A DNA stretch of 64,000 nucleotides from Acidimicrobiaceae bacterium (GTDB lineage: Bacteria > Actinomycetota > Acidimicrobiia > Acidimicrobiales > Ilumatobacteraceae): positions 1 to 64,000 of the forward strand of contig JAHEDX010000003.1 of NCBI GenBank assembly GCA_024641005.1, given 5' to 3'. Position numbers and translations under genes: made by a program. The notes under the pieces were generated by a model that was not told where the DNA came from, did not search any database, and saw only the letters and a list, made by a program, of their open reading frames with translations. Positions 44,005-55,349 of the stretch are shown here, piece after piece (positions within the stretch are counted from its first letter, which is position 1; each line of letters begins with the position of its first letter).

Positions 44005-44964
44005 TTAGACGCTGGGCGGGCGGCTCTTGGCGAATTCGCGCTCGACATCGGCGGTCGTGAGGGGGATCTCCTCGTTGCCGACGATCTCGGACGGTGGGAT
44101 CTTGCCGCCGCGCTTGAAATCGTACGACTCGCTGTGGCGAGCCGCGAACTTGGTGAAGAAGAGGTAGATCACGATCGACCAGAGGAACAGACCACCTGCG
44201 GTCTTCATCACCGCTCCCGCCAGCTGCTGATCGTCGACCGCCGAGATGCCCCACAGCCGCAGCGGCTTGTCGTAGACCTTGTAGACGACGTCGTCGGCAA
44301 AGGTGAGCCATGCCGCCGGGACCGTGGGCACCACCGACTGCAGGAACAGATAGATCATCGTGCCTGCCACACCCATCCGGAACTCGGGCACCGGGCCGCA
44401 GACCGGCATCCACATCAGCAGACCCGCCGAAACCACCAGCACGTGCAGGCCGTAGTGCAGCGGCCCGTTCTGCACGGACGCGTTGACCAGGGCCGGGATG
44501 TGGATGATCATCACCGTTACGTTGAACAGCACCCCCGCGACGATGGGCATCGAGAACCAGCGGACGGCCCGGTACAGCGCGCGATCGCCGAGCAGGGTGC
44601 GAGCCAGCCAGGTCGGTGTCGCCATCAGCGCGAGGGGCGGCAGGAAATAGCTCAACATCATGTGCTGGACCATGTGGGCCGAGTACAGGTAGTCCTCGCT
44701 GATGTCGTGGAGGGGCCAGTCGGACGCCGTCCACAACACGAGCATCGCCATCACGAACGTGATGATGTTGGCCCGCGACACGGCATGTTCTCCGGGTGGC
44801 ACGGCCTTCGGGCCGATCACACGCACCATGTACACATAGGCCGCAACCAGAAATCCCACGAGCACCCAGACCTCGGGGTGCCATTGATACGCAAGAGGAT
44901 GGGCCGGCAGATCTGCTGCCACGCCACCGGTCCGTTCGATCATGAGATTCAGATGTTGCGCCAT
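44005..44964 (-). CDS. ctaG: Cytochrome c oxidase assembly protein, CtaG (Caa3_CtaG) family
   Basis: A 319-residue polytopic membrane protein of the Caa3_CtaG type seen in Bacillus and actinobacteria, unrelated to the Cox11 protein also called CtaG. Family pieces are the histidine-rich SAHMVQHMMLSYFLPPLALM near residue 95 and YGLHVLVVSAGLLMWMPVCGPVP near 171, with about seven helices in all. It is needed for assembly of the CuB/heme site. It is last in the oxidase operon, 22 bp after subunit IV. Confidence 0.88.
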   Translation of the reverse strand: MAQHLNLMIERTGGVAADLPAHPLAYQWHPEVWVLVGFLVAAYVYMVRVIGPKAVPPGEHAVSRANIITFVMAMLVLWTASDWPLHDISEDYLYSAHMVQHMMLSYFLPPLALMATPTWLARTLLGDRALYRAVRWFSMPIVAGVLFNVTVMIIHIPALVNASVQNGPLHYGLHVLVVSAGLLMWMPVCGPVPEFRMGVAGTMIYLFLQSVVPTVPAAWLTFADDVVYKVYDKPLRLWGISAVDDQQLAGAVMKTAGGLFLWSIVIYLFFTKFAARHSESYDFKRGGKIPPSEIVGNEEIPLTTADVEREFAKSRPPSV

Positions 44965-44986: not shown

Positions 44987-45337
44987 TCAGGGGCTGAAGA
45001 ACTTGAAGGTGAACAATGCTGCCGTGTACACCGCTACCGCGAGCCCGAGGCCCAGGTAGAACATCAGGCTGAACAGGCGATTGTCGAACTTGAGGTGCAT
45101 GAAGAACAACACCACACTGAAGAACTTGATCAGCATCAGACCCAGCAACAGCGGCAGGAAGAAGGGGCCGAGATCGTCGACCATGTAGCTGATCGCCACT
45201 TCGATCGCGGTGATGACCGCCAACGCCAACGCCAACTTGATGTAGTTCAGGTCGGTCCAGTGCCCCTCGTCGTTCCAGTGGTCCTCGTCGTCGTGGACGT
45301 CGTCGTGGTCGGTGGCGTGTGCAGTGTCGGTGCTCAT
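44987..45337 (-). CDS. Cytochrome c oxidase subunit IV
   Basis: A 116-residue protein of the prokaryotic subunit IV type. A His/Asp-rich N-terminal stretch (TAHATDHDDVHDDEDHWNDEGHW) is followed by three helices, YIKLALALAVITAIEVAISYM, FFLPLLLGLMLIKFFSVVLFFMHL and FSLMFYLGLGLAVAVYTAALF. The motif KFFSVVLFFMHLKFD is typical of this subunit. The acidic, histidine-rich head could hold metal ions loosely. It lies 10 bp after subunit III. Confidence 0.88.
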   Translation of the reverse strand: MSTDTAHATDHDDVHDDEDHWNDEGHWTDLNYIKLALALAVITAIEVAISYMVDDLGPFFLPLLLGLMLIKFFSVVLFFMHLKFDNRLFSLMFYLGLGLAVAVYTAALFTFKFFSP

Positions 45338-45347
45338 GCGAGGTACC

Positions 45348-45977
45348 TCAGGCCGGGATCAGGTAGACGAGGGTGAAGATCAGGATCCACACGATGTCGA
45401 CGAAGTGCCAGTACAGACCGACGAGCTCGACGACTTCGGCCTTGTCGCCGGGTATCCGGTTCTTCAGGATCATGCCGACCGTGGCCAGCAACATGATGAC
45501 CCCGACCGACACGTGCACACCGTGGAACCCGGTGAGCGTGTAGAAACTCGACGAGAACAGACTGGTCGTGTAGCCGAGGCCCTCACGGTAGAAGGTGGTG
45601 AACTCGTACACCTGGCCGGCCACGAACAGCGAGCCGAGGATGGCGGTGACCGTGAGCCACAAGTTCGTGTTGCGATCGTCCTTGCGCTTGGCAGCTGTGA
45701 CCGCCAACACCATGGTGAGCGACGACATGAGCAACACGAAGCTGGAGGCCGACGTGAACGGGATGTCCCAGAACTGGTCGGGACCGCCGTTGGCCGAGTG
45801 GCGGCCGCGGTAGAGCATGTAGGTCGAGATGAGCCCGCCGAACAACAGGCATTCGGAGCCGAGGAACAACCACATCGCCAGCTTGTTGTTGGACAGCCCC
45901 GTCGATGTGTGGTGCACATCGCCGTGGCCATGGTCGTCGTGCTCGTCGACGGCGTCGTGAACGGCGGTATCAGCCAT
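45348..45977 (-). CDS. ctaE: Cytochrome c oxidase subunit III
   Basis: A 209-residue subunit with five helices, the short form common in actinobacteria. It contains KLAMWLFLGSECLLFGGLISTYMLYR at the first helix, the TGFHGVHVSVGVIML motif near 145 and the terminal YWHFVDIVWILIFTLVYLIPA. The N-terminal histidines (DEHDDHGHGDVHH) form a polar head. ATG at 45977 overlaps the end of ctaD by 8 bases. It stabilises subunit I and the D-pathway. Confidence 0.93.
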   Translation of the reverse strand: MADTAVHDAVDEHDDHGHGDVHHTSTGLSNNKLAMWLFLGSECLLFGGLISTYMLYRGRHSANGGPDQFWDIPFTSASSFVLLMSSLTMVLAVTAAKRKDDRNTNLWLTVTAILGSLFVAGQVYEFTTFYREGLGYTTSLFSSSFYTLTGFHGVHVSVGVIMLLATVGMILKNRIPGDKAEVVELVGLYWHFVDIVWILIFTLVYLIPA

Positions 45978-47964
45978 TGGTCGAGACCTCCAGTTCGGCG
46001 CCACCCTGCGGGGTCGGCGGGTCATAGTCGGCAGGGGACGCCGTATGCGGCTCGAGGCTCCAACCGAACATCGAGGCAAGCGCGATCGCTGCGCCGACCG
46101 GCACGAGCAACAGATTGAAGATCAATCCGTAGCCCATCACCGGCAACGAGAACGCCAGCAACAACGGCCAGTAGGACGGAGACGGCAGATGGATGTGTTG
46201 ATCGGCGTTGGCCTCTTGCTCGGCCATGATCTCCTCGGCCGTGGCGACCTGATGGAAGTCGTGATGATCGCCCTCGCCGCGGTCTTCGTACTTGCGATGG
46301 AAGAACTCGTCGAGGTGCCCGACGGTCGGGATCACGTCGAAGTTGTGCTCCTTGGGCGGGCTGGTGGTCATCCACTCGAGCGACCGGGCGTCCCACGGAT
46401 CGAGGGGTGCCCGCTCCTTCTTGCGTGACGACACGAAGACGTTGATGAAGAACAACAGCACGCCGATGCCCAGGATGAAGGCTCCGATCGACGAGATCAG
46501 GTTCCAGAAACCGAGATTGAAGAAGCCCTCGCCGGCCCGAGCGTCGGTCCAGACGTACATGCGTCGGGGCTGGCCCTGGAGACCGATGATGTGCATCGGG
46601 CCGAACGCCAGGTTCATGCCGACGATCATCGTCCAGAAGTTCCACTTGCCGAGCCGCTCGCTGAGCAGCTTGCCGAACATCTTCGGCCACCAGTAGTAGA
46701 GACCGGAGAAGATGCCGAGGATCGCACCACCGAACAGCACATAGTGGAAGTGGGCGACGATGTAGTAGGTGTCGGTTTGTTGGGTGTCAGACGGCGCCAC
46801 CGCATGGGTGACCCCTGACAGACCACCGATCGTGAACTCGATGATCAGACCGATCGAGAACATCATGGCCGTGGTGAAGCTGAGCTTGCCGCCCCACAGG
46901 GTCATCGTCCAGTTGACGATCTTGACGCCGGTCGGGATGGCGATCGCCATGGTGGCCACAGAGAAGACAGCGACCGAGATCGGCCCGAGTCCGGATGCGA
47001 ACATGTGGTGGGCCCACACGCCCCAGCCGACGAAACCGATCGCTGCGCCGGAGAACACCACCAGCGGGTATCCGAACAGCGGCTTCTTCGAGAAGACCGG
47101 CAGCACTTCGGAGACGATGCCGAACGACGGCAAGATCAGGATGTACACCTCGGGATGTCCGAAGATCCAGAAGAGGTGCTGCCAGAGCAACGGATCGGCG
47201 CCTGCCTCGACCGTGAAGAACGTCGCATCGAAGTTTCGTTGGAACATCAGCAGGAACAGCGCCACGGTGATGACGGGGATCGCGAACAGCAACAGGAACT
47301 GCACGACCAGGATCATCCAGGTGAAAATCGGCATCTTCATGAGCGACATACCCGGTGCCCGCATGTTGATCACCGTCACGATCAGGTTGATCGCGCCGGT
47401 CAGCGAGGCGATGCCCGTGATCTGCAGACCGAGCCCCCAGAAGTCGATGCCGTGTGTCGGCGAGAAGGGCACCGACGAGTTGGGGGCGTACATGAACCAG
47501 CCACCGTCGGCCGCTCCACCGAGCAGCCACGAGGTGTTGATGAAGATCGCGCCGCCGATGAAACACCAGAAGCCGAACGCGTTGATGCGTGGGAACGCAA
47601 CGTCGCGAGCGCCGATCTGGAGCGGCACGAAGTAGTTCGCGAACGCAGCGGCCATCGGCATCACGAACAAGAACACCATGGTGGTGGCATGCATGGTGAA
47701 CATCTGGTTGTACTTGTCGGCCGACAGGATCGTGCCGTTGGGTCCGGCCAGCTGCAGACGGATCAGCAGCGCTTCGAAACCACCGACGAGGAAGAAGAAC
47801 AGCGCGGCCGCGCCGTACATGATGCCGAGCTTCTTGTGGTCGATCGTGAACAGCCACGACTTCCACCCGGTGGACTCGACCGGCCGGCGAAACACGCCAA
47901 ACGACGATGAAGGAGTCGCGACTGCCGGCGCTTCGGCCGGTGCGGGACGTTCGATCAGGGCCAT
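45970..47964 (-). CDS. ctaD: Cytochrome c oxidase subunit I
   Basis: A 664-residue heme-copper oxidase catalytic subunit that reduces oxygen and pumps protons. All ligands are present: low-spin heme a H92 (MFTMH) and H407, heme a3 H405 (VAHFHYVLFG), CuB H270 with cross-linked Y274 (GHPEVY) and H319-H320 (WAHHMF). The C-terminal half adds about 100 residues including WTTSPP-type ending (LEWMTTSPPKEHNF). Start ATG at 47964 follows ctaC by 7 bp. It serves as the reference for the ligand-free paralogue at 50992-52665. Confidence 0.96.
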   Translation of the reverse strand: MALIERPAPAEAPAVATPSSSFGVFRRPVESTGWKSWLFTIDHKKLGIMYGAAALFFFLVGGFEALLIRLQLAGPNGTILSADKYNQMFTMHATTMVFLFVMPMAAAFANYFVPLQIGARDVAFPRINAFGFWCFIGGAIFINTSWLLGGAADGGWFMYAPNSSVPFSPTHGIDFWGLGLQITGIASLTGAINLIVTVINMRAPGMSLMKMPIFTWMILVVQFLLLFAIPVITVALFLLMFQRNFDATFFTVEAGADPLLWQHLFWIFGHPEVYILILPSFGIVSEVLPVFSKKPLFGYPLVVFSGAAIGFVGWGVWAHHMFASGLGPISVAVFSVATMAIAIPTGVKIVNWTMTLWGGKLSFTTAMMFSIGLIIEFTIGGLSGVTHAVAPSDTQQTDTYYIVAHFHYVLFGGAILGIFSGLYYWWPKMFGKLLSERLGKWNFWTMIVGMNLAFGPMHIIGLQGQPRRMYVWTDARAGEGFFNLGFWNLISSIGAFILGIGVLLFFINVFVSSRKKERAPLDPWDARSLEWMTTSPPKEHNFDVIPTVGHLDEFFHRKYEDRGEGDHHDFHQVATAEEIMAEQEANADQHIHLPSPSYWPLLLAFSLPVMGYGLIFNLLLVPVGAAIALASMFGWSLEPHTASPADYDPPTPQGGAELEVSTNG

Positions 47965-47971
47965 CTCAGGA

Positions 47972-49261
47972 TCACTTCCGCTCGATCAAGTAGGCGACCA
48001 GTTCGTTGATCTGGTCCTCGGACAGGGCGAGATACGGCATGCCCCGGGTCTTGCCGTCGGTGTCGGCGAGGCTCTCCGGATCGGTGTACATCGGCTTCTT
48101 GGCCGGTGCGTTTCGCAGCCATTCCTTCAGATCGATCTCGTTGAGACAACTCTTGGTGACACCTTCGAGGTACTTCGCACCGAACTCGGCGGGCGGCGCC
48201 TCCCACACGTCCGCCCGACAATCCTCGGTGAGCAGGTCCCAGCTGGCACCCGCAAACGTGTTGCGGGTCATCAGATTGGTGAGGTTCGGCGCTGCGCCGC
48301 TCCACACGAACTGTTCGGGTGAGGCGACCACCAGTTCACCGTCGGCATTGGTGAGACCATCGATCTGATGACACCGCGAACACTGCGAGATGAAGGTTTG
48401 CTCACCGGTCGCTGCGAGGGTACCCGCCTCCGGCGACTGATACGGCTCGAGCTGATTGTCGATCCAGGCCTGGAAGTCGGCATCGTCGAGGGCGACGATC
48501 TCCATGCGCATGTTGGCATGGGACAGTCCACAGAATTCGGCGCACTGACCGGCGTAGATGCCGGGTTGCTCGGCCTCGAAGTTCCACGTGTGCACTCTGC
48601 CGGGCACCATGTCGCGCTTGCCGTTGAGCTTGGGAACCCAGAACGAATGGATCACATCACGGCTGGTGCCACGGATGACGACCTTGGCACCGACCGGAAT
48701 CACCATTTGTCCGCTGGTGACGATCGGTGCGGCATCGCCGGTCGGGGCGAACCCGCAGATGTTGTTGCTGGCGTCGACCGGGTAGTCGTACTCCCACCAC
48801 CACTGCTGACCGGTGACGTTGATCACGCAGTCGGCGTTGTCGGTGTCGTTGAGCGAGATGACCTCGGCGACGGTCGGCACCGCGATGCCGGCGAGCAACA
48901 GCGCCGGAATGGCGATGAACACATACTCGATCAAGGCGTTGCCGTGGCCCTGCTCGGGAATCGGCTGACCGCGGTCCTTGAACTTGATCACGACGAACAG
49001 CACGACACCGAACACGATCACACCCACGATGCCGGCGATCATGAAGATCGGCCACTGCAGATTGTGGATGTCTTGTGCGTACTTGCCCTCCGGCGCCCAT
49101 GTGTCCTGCGGCGCATCGCTGGCGCACGACGCCAACAGCGCTGTTGCGCCCAGACCGAATGCGGCCGTGCGCAGGCGTGAACCGCCGGAACGAGGGGTGG
49201 GGAGTTCGGTTTGAATCAAGTCGGTCCGTACTTTCTCGGGCTGAGTCACCTGACGGCTCAT
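47972..49261 (-). CDS. ctaC: Cytochrome c oxidase subunit II with fused cytochrome c
   Basis: A 429-residue subunit. Signal and lipobox (ALLASC, C46) are followed by two helices (about 70-95 and 110-135) and the cupredoxin CuA domain. Its ligands are H in DVIHSFWVPKLNG and the cluster GQCAEFCGLSHANM near 245-258. A c-type cytochrome domain is fused at the C-terminus: CSRCH near 303 and the axial methionine in TRGMPYLALSEDQ. This makes the enzyme a caa3-type oxidase. ATG at 49261 overlaps the stop of the preceding gene (ATGA). Copper is probably delivered by the Sco and PCu(A)C proteins encoded nearby. Confidence 0.94.
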   Translation of the reverse strand: MSRQVTQPEKVRTDLIQTELPTPRSGGSRLRTAAFGLGATALLASCASDAPQDTWAPEGKYAQDIHNLQWPIFMIAGIVGVIVFGVVLFVVIKFKDRGQPIPEQGHGNALIEYVFIAIPALLLAGIAVPTVAEVISLNDTDNADCVINVTGQQWWWEYDYPVDASNNICGFAPTGDAAPIVTSGQMVIPVGAKVVIRGTSRDVIHSFWVPKLNGKRDMVPGRVHTWNFEAEQPGIYAGQCAEFCGLSHANMRMEIVALDDADFQAWIDNQLEPYQSPEAGTLAATGEQTFISQCSRCHQIDGLTNADGELVVASPEQFVWSGAAPNLTNLMTRNTFAGASWDLLTEDCRADVWEAPPAEFGAKYLEGVTKSCLNEIDLKEWLRNAPAKKPMYTDPESLADTDGKTRGMPYLALSEDQINELVAYLIERK

Positions 49262-50401: not shown

Positions 50402-50995
50402 TCACTTGGTGACGTAGACGACGAACCAGACCGCGCTGTATGCAGCAGCGGCGAAGTACCAATAGAGGGCGTGGGCCGAGAGGACCTCGGCTTCCTGGAG
50501 GCGGCCGCCGAGCGCCCGGAAGGCGGCGACCGTGGTGTAGAGGAGGCCGGCGACGACGATCGCCAACATGGTCCCGGTGACGGCGTAGAAGAGGACGCCG
50601 TAGTAGTCGGTCCTGATCTCGACCGCCATGTCTGCGTAGATGAACGCTTGGGCGTTGATGAAGGCGATCGCCAGGAGCGCTGTGACCGCGAGGGCCAGAC
50701 CCGTGTGGGCGCGATCGCCTCGACTTCCCGAGTACACGGCCCACTGAGCGAAGATGCACAACGCCCAGATCGTCATCAACATCACGTTCGACGCGACTTC
50801 GGGGATGACGTAGTCGGCCGGGAACCGGCCTCCCGAGTCGACCACGCGCTCGCGTAGCAGCACCCAGATGGCGAGCATGCCGCCCATCAACATCGTGGCG
50901 GCGGTGCAGGCAAGTGCCGTGCCGACGAGGAGTTGCCGCCGCGGAGCGGCGACGGGAGCGGGAGGCAGTTCGAACACAGCGGTGGAGGTGTTCAT
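50402..50995 (-). CDS. Heme-copper oxidase subunit III-like protein
   Basis: A 197-residue five-helix protein. It shares the subunit III layout: a first helix ending in a charged turn (MLMGGMLAIWVLLRERVV), a middle helix pair, and an end YWYFAAAAYSAVWFVVYVTK that parallels the YWHFVDIVWILIF of subunit III with the histidine replaced. It is clearly different from ctaE in the same operon. It overlaps the CoxI-like gene by 4 bases, so the two products are made together and probably form a CoxI-CoxIII-like pair. Confidence 0.75.
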   Translation of the reverse strand: MNTSTAVFELPPAPVAAPRRQLLVGTALACTAATMLMGGMLAIWVLLRERVVDSGGRFPADYVIPEVASNVMLMTIWALCIFAQWAVYSGSRGDRAHTGLALAVTALLAIAFINAQAFIYADMAVEIRTDYYGVLFYAVTGTMLAIVVAGLLYTTVAAFRALGGRLQEAEVLSAHALYWYFAAAAYSAVWFVVYVTK

Positions 50996-52665
50996 GACGG
51001 GCTCCCTTCGTTCGCCGTCTCGAACAAGGGCTCGGGCGATGTCACCGCGACGACCTGCTCATAGTTGTCGGCGGGCGCCGGCGAGGAGGTGGACCATTCG
51101 ATGGTGTAACCGCCGAACGGGTTCTCGTCCGCCGTATCACCATCTCCGGTGAACGTTCTGAGCATCAGACCGGCGAACGCCAGCACGGTCACCGCCATCA
51201 CGCCGTGGCCGGCGAGCGACAGGATGTTCCAGAGCGACCCGGACGTGACATCGCCGATCGACAGCATCGCAGCGACATCGGTGTCGTTCGCCGGCACGCC
51301 ACCCACCTGGTCGAGGAAGCCTGCGACATACAGAGGAGCACCGGCGAGCAGGGTACCGACCAGGCCCAGCATGGCAAGCGGGAGTACCTGCTTCTCGGGA
51401 AGCACACGACCCCACAGTTTGGGTGCCCAGAACAAGATGCCACCCATGACACCGAGCGCCGTGCCGTAGACGACGAAGAGGGTTGCGCCCTCCTCGAAGA
51501 CGGTACCGATCAGTTCGAGGTCGGTGATGCCGTACAAGAAATTGCCGATCAGGCCGACGGCGATCATCTTGAGGCCCAACAACGAGAACACGAACGGCGA
51601 CGAGATGCGGGGTTTGCCATTGCCCATGCCCTGCTTGGCGGTCAGAAGACCGAGCCCCAGCACCATCGCGAGACCGAGCAGCGGAAGACCCGCGAACAAG
51701 ATGAACGGGACGACGTCCTTGATGAACGTGGTGCCGTCGGTGTCGAAGGTGACGCCGAGGACGGATTGCTGGGTCGTGGCGGCGAGCGCCGTGACACCCA
51801 CGAGAGCGATGCCTGCGAACGCAACGCCTCGCATCGGTTGGCGCTGCCTGAAGGTGACCGGGAACATCTCGGCAGCCATTCCCACCGCCGGCAAGGCGTA
51901 CACGACGATCGCCGGAATCGAGAATGCCCAGCCGATCCACGTGGCGATGCCTTCCGAACCACCGAAGTTCAGTTGGGCGTAGCGGTGATCGAGGAAGAGG
52001 TAGACGATCGCGCCGAACAGCACAGGGAGGGCCAGCAGCATCGCGAGCGCACCGACCAATGCGGACCAGGCGAACATCGGGACGCGTCGCATGGTCATTC
52101 CGGGGGCCCGGGTGGTCAGCACCGACGTCGCCACGCAGCCGGCCGATACCAGCAGCCCGATGATCATCAGGCCGTGACCGGCCAGGAACAGATCGACGGC
52201 TTGGTCGTCTCCGCCACCGATGCCACCGTTGCGACCCAGGGCGGCCATCGTGAGCACGAGGCCGCCGAGCCAGCCGTAGAAGCCCGTCAGGGCAAGACGA
52301 GGAAAGGCGATCGAGCGGGCGCCGAGTTGGAGCGGGGCGACCGCGATCGAGAGCCCGAGGCCGAGCGGGATGACAGCCGCGAAGACGAGACCGACCCGAT
52401 AGGCCTGGAACATCTGGAGCAGCGCGTCAGCGTTGAGGAGCGCGTTGGCATCGTCGGAACGCTCGAGGCCCAGCAGCACACCCAACACCGTCGTGGCGAG
52501 CAACGCGAGCAGGCCCGAACCCACGTACAGGCGGCCGATGCGCTTGTGATCGGTGGTGGTGACCCACGCAGCGGTACCGACAAAGAACGACGCCACAGCG
52601 GATTCGCTGTGGGCGTCGTCTGCCGCTGGGTCTGCGGCGTCTGGACGTATATCGATCGTCGTCAT
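50992..52665 (-). CDS. CoxI-like protein lacking all heme and copper ligands
   Basis: A 557-residue protein homologous to subunit I: TDHKRIGRLY, APLQLGARSIAFPRL, TTRAPGMTMRRVPMFAW, and a C-terminal NPFGGYTIEWSTSSPAPADNY. Yet none of the ligands of ctaD survive. MFTMH reads MFQAY (85-89), HPEVY reads IPAIV (250-254), AHHMF reads ATTQQ (296-300), and AHFHYVLFG reads EGATLFVVYG (392-401). It cannot bind heme a, a3 or CuB in the known way, so it is not a working oxidase by itself. The reading frame is intact over its full length, and it heads an operon with the real oxidase. A structural, assembly or regulatory partner role is likely. Confidence 0.85.
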   Translation of the reverse strand: MTTIDIRPDAADPAADDAHSESAVASFFVGTAAWVTTTDHKRIGRLYVGSGLLALLATTVLGVLLGLERSDDANALLNADALLQMFQAYRVGLVFAAVIPLGLGLSIAVAPLQLGARSIAFPRLALTGFYGWLGGLVLTMAALGRNGGIGGGDDQAVDLFLAGHGLMIIGLLVSAGCVATSVLTTRAPGMTMRRVPMFAWSALVGALAMLLALPVLFGAIVYLFLDHRYAQLNFGGSEGIATWIGWAFSIPAIVVYALPAVGMAAEMFPVTFRQRQPMRGVAFAGIALVGVTALAATTQQSVLGVTFDTDGTTFIKDVVPFILFAGLPLLGLAMVLGLGLLTAKQGMGNGKPRISSPFVFSLLGLKMIAVGLIGNFLYGITDLELIGTVFEEGATLFVVYGTALGVMGGILFWAPKLWGRVLPEKQVLPLAMLGLVGTLLAGAPLYVAGFLDQVGGVPANDTDVAAMLSIGDVTSGSLWNILSLAGHGVMAVTVLAFAGLMLRTFTGDGDTADENPFGGYTIEWSTSSPAPADNYEQVVAVTSPEPLFETANEGSPS

Positions 52666-54011: not shown

Positions 54012-54947
54012 TCAGATCAAGACGTCGAGCGTCATCGCTCCGAACAACACCGTCACGTAGGTGATCGAGAAGCCGAACACCCGCATCGACGCCGACGCCG
54101 TCGGGTGGCTGCCGAGCCAGATCGTTGCACCGATGAACATCGCCCCCATGACGACGGCGGTCACGCTGTAGACGAAGCCGAGATCAGCGACCGGGATCAG
54201 GATGAGCGTGCAGGCGACCATGGCCAGGGTGTGGCCCACCATCTGGCGGATCGCGTTCTGGAACGGCACCACGGCGGGCAGCATCGGAACGTTGGCGGCG
54301 CGGTAGTCATCGGCGTACTTGATGGCGAGCGCCCAGAAGTGTGGGGGCGTCCAGAAGAACATCACGGCGAACAACACGACCGGCGTCCAGCTGAGATCGT
54401 TCTGCACGGCGGCCCAGCCGACGAGCACGGGGACGGCGCCGGCGGCACCACCGATCACGATGTTCTGCTTGCTCGTGCGCTTGAGCCACAAGGTGTAGAT
54501 GCCGACGTAGAACGCTGTGGCGGCGAGGGCCAGTGCTGCGGCGAGCAGATTGGCGCCCGCCCACAGCACGACGAACGCGACCATCTCGAGCACCAGGGCG
54601 AACACCAGGGCATTGCGGGGCTCGATCACACCCGTGACCAACGGCCGGTTCCTCGTGCGTTCCATCAGCTTGTCGATGTCGCGGTCGACGTACATGTTGA
54701 TCGCGTTCGCTCCGCCGGCTGCGAGCGTGCCCCCGATCAGGGTGATGATCACCAGCCAGGTGGACGGCCAGCCGCCTTCGGCGAGCACCATCGTGGGTAC
54801 CGTCGTGATCAACAGCAGTTCGATGATGCGCGGCTTCGTGAGCGCCACGTAGGCGCCCACGCTCGTCGTGGCGGTCCGCCGGCTGCCGTGAGCGATACCG
54901 CCAGGCGCCAGCCGAGACGGGACGAGAGGTCGACTGCCGACTGCCAT
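54012..54947 (-). CDS. ctaB: Protoheme IX farnesyltransferase (heme O synthase)
   Basis: A 311-residue UbiA-family prenyltransferase of the inner membrane. It adds the farnesyl tail to heme b, producing heme O for the oxidase. The first aspartate-rich motif is NMYVDRDIDKLMERTRNRPLV near 82-102, and the second polar loop is FFWTPPHFWALAIKYADDYRAANVPMLP near 195. About nine helices are visible. The ATG at 54947 gives the usual N-terminal length. Heme A synthase (CtaA) is not in the window. The clpS gene is divergent, 96 bp away. Confidence 0.93.
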   Translation of the reverse strand: MAVGSRPLVPSRLAPGGIAHGSRRTATTSVGAYVALTKPRIIELLLITTVPTMVLAEGGWPSTWLVIITLIGGTLAAGGANAINMYVDRDIDKLMERTRNRPLVTGVIEPRNALVFALVLEMVAFVVLWAGANLLAAALALAATAFYVGIYTLWLKRTSKQNIVIGGAAGAVPVLVGWAAVQNDLSWTPVVLFAVMFFWTPPHFWALAIKYADDYRAANVPMLPAVVPFQNAIRQMVGHTLAMVACTLILIPVADLGFVYSVTAVVMGAMFIGATIWLGSHPTASASMRVFGFSITYVTVLFGAMTLDVLI

Positions 54948-55043
54948 ACCGCTCCCATCGTACGGCCCCGCGCACGAACCGGCCAACGCACCATGTCGCG
55001 CGTGTTCGTGACGCGATGTTCCGCCGCCAGGCACAATGGTGGG

Positions 55044-55349
55044 GTGCCGACGACCCTCGAACCGACGCGGGTGATCGAACCCGACGTGGACGAGCAGGTC
55101 GCGGCCGATCACCCATGGATCGTGATCGTGTGGAACGACCCGGTGAACCTCATGAGCTATGTCACCTTCGTGCTGCAGAAGCTGTTCGGCTTTTCGAACG
55201 AAAAGGCCACGGCACTGATGCTCGACGTGCACCACAAGGGCAGAGCCGTCGTCGCCAACGACACCAGGGAGCGGGCCGAGATGCACGTGTTCCGGCTACA
55301 CGAGCACGGGCTGTGGGCGTCGATGGAGAAGGACGGCCCGAGCACATGA
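55044..55349 (+). CDS. clpS: ATP-dependent Clp protease adaptor ClpS
   Basis: A 101-residue adaptor that hands N-degron substrates to the Clp protease. The core is present: PWIVIVWNDPVNLMSYVTFVLQKLFG (about 24-49; NDxxxxMxYVxxVL binding pocket), HHKGRAVV and the end RAEMHVFRLHEHGLWASME. The N-terminal tail of about 20 residues before the fold is needed to trigger ClpA/C in relatives. GTG at 55044 is the closest frame-matching start. The DUF2017 gene follows, as in many actinobacteria. Confidence 0.93.
   Translation: MPTTLEPTRVIEPDVDEQVAADHPWIVIVWNDPVNLMSYVTFVLQKLFGFSNEKATALMLDVHHKGRAVVANDTRERAEMHVFRLHEHGLWASMEKDGPST

Follow-up and report, generated by a model that had tools for sequence, protein, structure and literature searches.

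A subunit I paralogue of the heme-copper oxidases without heme or copper ligands, in a conserved three-gene module beside the caa3 oxidase genes of Acidimicrobiales

Heme-copper oxidase subunit I ranks among the most conserved catalytic proteins in aerobic life, and the cox locus analysed in this study raises the question of what is retained when an intact subunit I gene is accompanied by a second one whose product has lost all of its heme- and copper-binding residues. The locus lies within a stretch of 64,000 nucleotides (here termed the window) of contig JAHEDX010000003.1 (GCA_024641005.1), derived from an Acidimicrobiaceae bacterium of the Ilumatobacteraceae; the same genome also gives cytochrome-b-like and NrfD-like matches.

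The ligand-free protein belongs to a three-gene module located between ctaB and ctaCDE, with all genes on the minus strand. The module consists of psiCoxI (50992..52665), encoding a CoxI-fold protein of 557 aa with no heme or CuB ligand, psiCoxIII (50402..50995), encoding a short CoxIII-like protein of 197 aa, and P4 (49258..50388). These are followed by ctaC (47972..49261), encoding a CoxII with a C-terminal cytochrome c domain (caa3 type), ctaD (45970..47964), encoding a canonical subunit I with all ligands present, and ctaE (45348..46079), encoding a canonical CoxIII, for which the listed start is TTG and the true start probably lies downstream. At its C-terminus the ctaD product has a subunit-IV-like extension (PF12270, E 1.6e-5, narrowly under the gathering score), which bears a weak likeness to P4. 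A ctaF-like gene for a small subunit IV (44987..45337), assigned by operon position, and a ctaG-like gene for a copper assembly protein (44005..44964), assigned from sequence and operon position, complete the set. From psiCoxI through ctaD, genes overlap by 4 bases (the psiCoxIII start with the psiCoxI stop, and P4 with ctaC) or lie no more than about 13 bases apart. A prior sequence-only reading of this DNA, in which the three-gene unit went unrecognised, had placed psiCoxI at the head of the oxidase operon, which holds for this tight run, while ctaB (54012..55149, start approximate; heme O synthase, a conserved neighbour upstream of the module) and a Gig2-like gene (PF07350; 52822-54003) precede it on the same strand. 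Besides the window, only three close relatives (L003, L005 and L013) were seen to carry the latter gene, which is therefore a lineage-specific insertion into the operon.

The psiCoxI frame is uninterrupted from ATG to stop and its codon-position GC (0.66/0.47/0.83) resembles that of the neighbouring genes, in agreement with the complete frame and normal codon use reported earlier. The protein matches Pfam COX1 (PF00115) over residues 42–452 with an E-value of 4.2e-31, above the gathering score, and is 25% identical over 559 columns (BLAST E 6e-43) to the ctaD product encoded 3 kb downstream, with which it shares the motifs DHK, PLQxGAR..AFPR, RAPGM and EWxTxSP, so that the original description of a full-length CoxI paralogue stands. 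The match to TIGR02891 (CtaD) has an E-value of 3.7e-49 and reaches 168 bits against an equivalog cut-off of 671, and the protein scores far under the curated cut-offs for any functional oxidase. An AlphaFold (AF2) model built from 12 close relatives (pLDDT 78) displays a complete CoxI fold, aligning 485 residues with Mycobacterium smegmatis CoxI (6adq_F) at a Z score of 38.4. By homology and predicted fold, psiCoxI is thus a subunit I of the heme-copper oxidase superfamily.

Its active site lacks all the usual ligand residues. The heme-a ligand His92 (bovine H61) is replaced by Tyr89 (codon 52399..52401); the HPEVY motif, which contributes a CuB histidine, a glutamate and the cross-linked tyrosine, reads IPAIV (residues 250–254, 51904..51918, with I250 at 51918 and V254 in the tyrosine column); and HFH, which supplies the heme a3 and heme a ligands, reads ATL (residues 394–396, 51478..51486, with A394 at 51486 and L396 at 51480). 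These three replacements are as first reported. The fourth, HH to TT at the CuB histidine pair, is correct in that no histidine is present, while the residues themselves are A296/T297 in the pairwise BLAST alignment or Q299/Q300 in the family alignment, around the stretch TTQQ (residues 297–300, 51766..51777). The D-channel aspartate (GARD to GARS) and the K-channel lysine are lost as well. Consequently, the features examined as marks of a functional A-family subunit I, i.e. the CuB histidines and cross-linked tyrosine, the axial heme histidines and the D- and K-channel residues, are all absent. An alignment artefact was ruled out: alignments of the family, comprising about 80 members together with 58 canonical sequences, give a consistent picture, and psiCoxI contains only five histidines (residues 19, 40, 164, 227 and 487), none of which falls in a ligand column.

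The psiCoxIII protein matches Pfam COX3 (E 1.1e-7; 32.5 bits, above the gathering score of 23.8), has NF050119 as its best NCBIfam match (E 3e-10) and is 27% identical to the ctaE product. P4 combines an N-terminal subunit-IV-like part, further TM helices and a C-terminal cupredoxin-fold domain (residues ~262–376). P4 of the window gives no Pfam match; across its family the N-terminal part resembles actinobacterial subunit IV (PF12270 in 12 of 39 members; 7q21_F, E 1e-4), and the second part has its homologue in a membrane cupredoxin that other classes encode as a separate protein at the 3' end of their cox operons. The modelled C-terminal domain (pLDDT mostly 73–87) superimposes on the cupredoxin 4hcg_B with a Z score of 11.6 (2.2 Å over 86 residues); the TM part was modelled poorly (pLDDT mostly 40–65), and interpretation is confined to the C-terminal domain. 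The type-1 copper ligands (His...Cys-His-Met) are absent from P4 of the window and present in early-branching families (HN..., CDxHPxM). By family, this domain is a blue-copper cupredoxin in the early branches and an acidic or His-rich tail in most others, and in the Ilumatobacteraceae it is a ligand-free cupredoxin fold with two conserved cysteines (C244 and C333). From these sequences, the module of the window cannot pass electrons through heme or copper by any conventional route.

The module is widespread and its position is nearly constant. The order ctaB-psiI-psiIII-P4-CoxII-CoxI-CoxIII-CtaF-CtaG was found in nearly all of about 50 Acidimicrobiales loci examined, and P4 (E < 1e-20) was detected in 40 of the 60 Acidimicrobiales families sampled (248 genomes). 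Among the matches listed, P4 and the caa3-type CoxI were distributed 155/11/3/79 across these genomes (both in 155, neither in 79, mixed in 14), so that presence agrees in 234 of 248 (Fisher p 2e-48, a value that ignores phylogeny). Four of the 14 mixed genomes were inspected and revealed contig ends, split frames or frameshifts, or otherwise incomplete assemblies. At G040:C9:43778-45693 the caa3 CoxI lies in two frames beside an apparently normal module, reflecting a frameshift or assembly error. Where a family lacks the module, the scores indicate that its CoxI is exclusively of the other, aa3-like type. Outside the Acidimicrobiales the module was not found in a phylum sample of 396 genomes, where the best matches inspected were all canonical oxidases.

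Phylogenetic analysis supports a single origin. All psiCoxI proteins form one clade (bootstrap/SH-aLRT 100/100), which is deep and apart from the caa3 CoxI clade, ruling out a recent local duplication of the neighbouring ctaD; its sister-group placement is tentative (SH-aLRT of 87 in a quick tree). Families f29 and f9/f14/f7 branch off first within it, and the remaining members are grouped in a further 100/100 clade. In a census of 72 non-redundant members, D91 or K319 was kept in none, and the CuB histidines were entirely lost in 68 and reduced to one of three in four. The heme-a pair is retained in 19 members and all three axial histidines in eight, while 37 members keep none of the six ligand histidines. 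Family f29 retains the heme-a pair; in f9/f14/f7 the full set of three axial histidines is mostly present (H376 is Asn in one member), as are, in most, the Glu and Tyr of HPEVY. Both groups encode a P4 whose cupredoxin preserves the His...Cys-His-Met pattern; every member found with the P4 copper site also has the heme-a pair. On the tree, the P4 copper site changed once and the heme-a pair six times. Since the early psiCoxI branches adjoin the canonical outgroup, the simplest reading of these sequences would be that CuB and the proton channels were lost first, followed by the copper site and the hemes. Because early-branching relatives retain ligands for heme a as well as a type-1 copper site, both overlooked in the sequence-only reading, the psiCoxI of the window, whose lineage has lost all heme and CuB ligands and the P4 copper ligands, is, as far as alignment and tree allow, the end point of a graded loss and not the family norm. 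The ligand-free form thus describes this protein accurately and does not extend to the family as a whole, several homologues of which keep heme ligands.

Two further observations concern the residues that remain. In six loci of f9, f14 and f7 (L068, L130, L131, L134, L139 and L140), CuB and the proton channels are gone, the axial heme histidines persist (mostly all three, with Asn at H376 in L134), Arg occupies the D91 column and P4 bears a copper-type cupredoxin; the psiCoxI proteins of these loci are candidate CuB-less cytochromes. In many families, e.g. L024, L025, L034, L039 and L055, ligand histidines are often replaced by glutamine (HPEVY to QPQxY, H290 to Q, H376 to Q), and this recurrent substitution suggests that a polar pocket is retained.

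The module is under purifying selection, and the constraint is weaker than on the enzyme: among close relatives dN/dS was 0.04–0.23 for psiCoxI, 0.10–0.16 for psiCoxIII and 0.09–0.26 for P4, compared to 0.03–0.16 for ctaD in the same pairs, and the psi genes diverge at roughly three times the rate of canonical CoxI (mean distance 1.39 versus 0.46). Measured against canonical CoxI, the best-conserved parts (0.77–0.89) are TM3-5, the C-terminal tail and two N-side loops (2-3 and 4-5); TM8 (0.50) and TM9 (0.59), which house the CuB histidine pair and K-channel, are conserved least. The Arg of RAPGM is kept in all members aligned. Subunit III packs against the TM3-6 side of CoxI, and the conservation of TM3-5 would fit a retained scaffold for psiCoxIII. 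In a mirror-tree analysis, psiI, psiIII, P4 and CoxI show correlated pairwise distances over and above CtaB and CtaG; almost every cox pair gave a positive correlation, and the analysis is therefore non-discriminating.

With intact frames across most of the order, low dN/dS, synteny and conservation of the structural parts, the suggestion that a cofactor-free oxidase subunit has been retained for a new, non-catalytic role is well supported, save that an ion conductor, one of the roles originally proposed, is disfavoured by the loss of both proton-channel residues in all members. The same data dispose of the notion that psiCoxI is a decaying duplicate, a pseudogene in progress without function: fast evolution and the stepwise loss of functional residues would be expected of such a gene, but intact frames at synteny in 40 families, dN/dS of 0.04–0.23 and conserved structural motifs refute it for practical purposes, and we give it next to no credence.

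We propose that the gene encodes pseudo-subunit I of a second, catalytically dead oxidase module that forms a structural or assembly accessory half of the caa3 oxidase, a reading to which we would give an even chance. The module would have been embedded once, ahead of the caa3 genes, in an ancestor of most Acidimicrobiales; judging by the gene overlaps and short gaps, psiCoxI, psiCoxIII and P4 would be made together with the caa3 oxidase and may come together as a dead protomer; the membrane scaffold of this protomer would dock on, or assemble with, the active enzyme, providing dimer or assembly support as opposed to electron transfer or proton pumping. Coupling of the module to the caa3 oxidase is deduced from gene overlap, synteny and co-occurrence, from which we infer a physical association; on these grounds the metal-free module is probably a structural part of the working enzyme. 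Against this proposal, many caa3/aa3 oxidases function without the module, including those of caa3-type operons in other classes, and the fast evolution of the psi proteins is unusual for a tightly packed core subunit. A bolder version, which we advance only tentatively, holds that the caa3 oxidase of Acidimicrobiales is obligatorily a hetero-dimer in which a live protomer is paired with a dead one, and that the dead partner passed through a CuB-less cytochrome-a/blue-copper electron-transfer stage that survives in the early-branching families.

An assembly factor or an independent complex would account just as well for synteny and co-occurrence. A transient factor absent from the finished enzyme, acting in heme a or copper insertion or as a placeholder for CoxI/CoxIII, would explain why ctaB and ctaG are constant neighbours of the module, and the heme-a ligands and putative copper-binding cupredoxin of the early branches could carry cofactors; yet the module persisted through repeated loss of these sites, which disfavours heme or copper carrying as the shared function, and three subunits with a full CoxI fold are large for a chaperone, rendering this explanation rather doubtful. 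We regard as unlikely a separate membrane complex that is merely co-regulated with the oxidase and has its own function in transport, quinone or lipid binding, or sensing. Such a complex could account for the module's own subunit III and IV equivalents, its own extra-membrane domain and the conserved glutamines in the ligand columns of many families (QPQxY; Q at H240 in 39 of 72 and at H290 in 43 of 72), but it sits poorly with near-perfect coupling to caa3 operons and not to other loci, with translationally coupled gene ends and with the disappearance of the polar residues, too, from the lineage of the window (IPAIV). It is highly improbable that substitute ligands still allow psiCoxI in the family of the window to bind a redox cofactor: His487 and His164, its only two intramembrane histidines, occur in 14 and 10 of 19 Ilumatobacteraceae sequences, respectively, so that neither is invariant even within the family, and TM4 and TM12, in which H164 and H487 reside, are not adjacent in the CoxI fold, precluding that both jointly hold one heme.

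The CoxI fold, the operon and pseudoenzymes as such are already known, and comparison with these systems defines what is particular to the accessory-half module proposed here. Relative to A-family subunit I (CtaD/CoxA; TIGR02891, NF050116), psiCoxI shares the fold, length, 12 TM helices, DHK/FPR/RAPGM/EWxTSP motifs and an operon with CoxII/III/IV and CtaB/CtaG, and differs in the absence of heme a/a3/CuB ligands, cross-link tyrosine and D-/K-channel residues, at ~25% identity. Relative to the bcc-aa3 set (CtaC-CtaD-CtaE-CtaF) of Mycobacterium and Corynebacterium, psiCoxIII is similarly short and P4 starts like subunit IV, whereas the module has no CoxII, its subunit IV is joined in one protein with additional TM helices and a cupredoxin-fold domain, and its active site is dead. 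The membrane-anchored cupredoxin that closes cox operons at their 3' end in other classes (L128, L129 and L144) likewise joins TM segments to a cupredoxin domain, but is free-standing with plausible copper ligands, unlike the ligand-free, subunit-IV-fused P4 of the window. Respiratory and ATP-driven complexes are known to contain pseudoenzyme subunits, e.g. non-catalytic ATPase alpha subunits, in which a paralogue devoid of catalysis likewise serves as structural partner, whereas here an entire three-gene module is concerned; we know of no such case in the heme-copper oxidase superfamily. The open-access papers searched in full text yielded no description of a conserved ligand-free CoxI with its own subunit III and subunit-IV/cupredoxin fusion.

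In practical terms, psi genes can be miscounted as terminal oxidases by annotation pipelines. An order-wide family that keeps the fold and the operon while shedding proton channels, CuB and then hemes indicates that the scaffold can be selected without redox chemistry, and its intermediates, in which CuB is gone and the heme histidines and a blue-copper partner are kept, offer a natural series for separating the structural from the catalytic demands on complex IV. Should the hetero-dimer of a live and a dead protomer prove true, it would represent a new architecture of complex IV.
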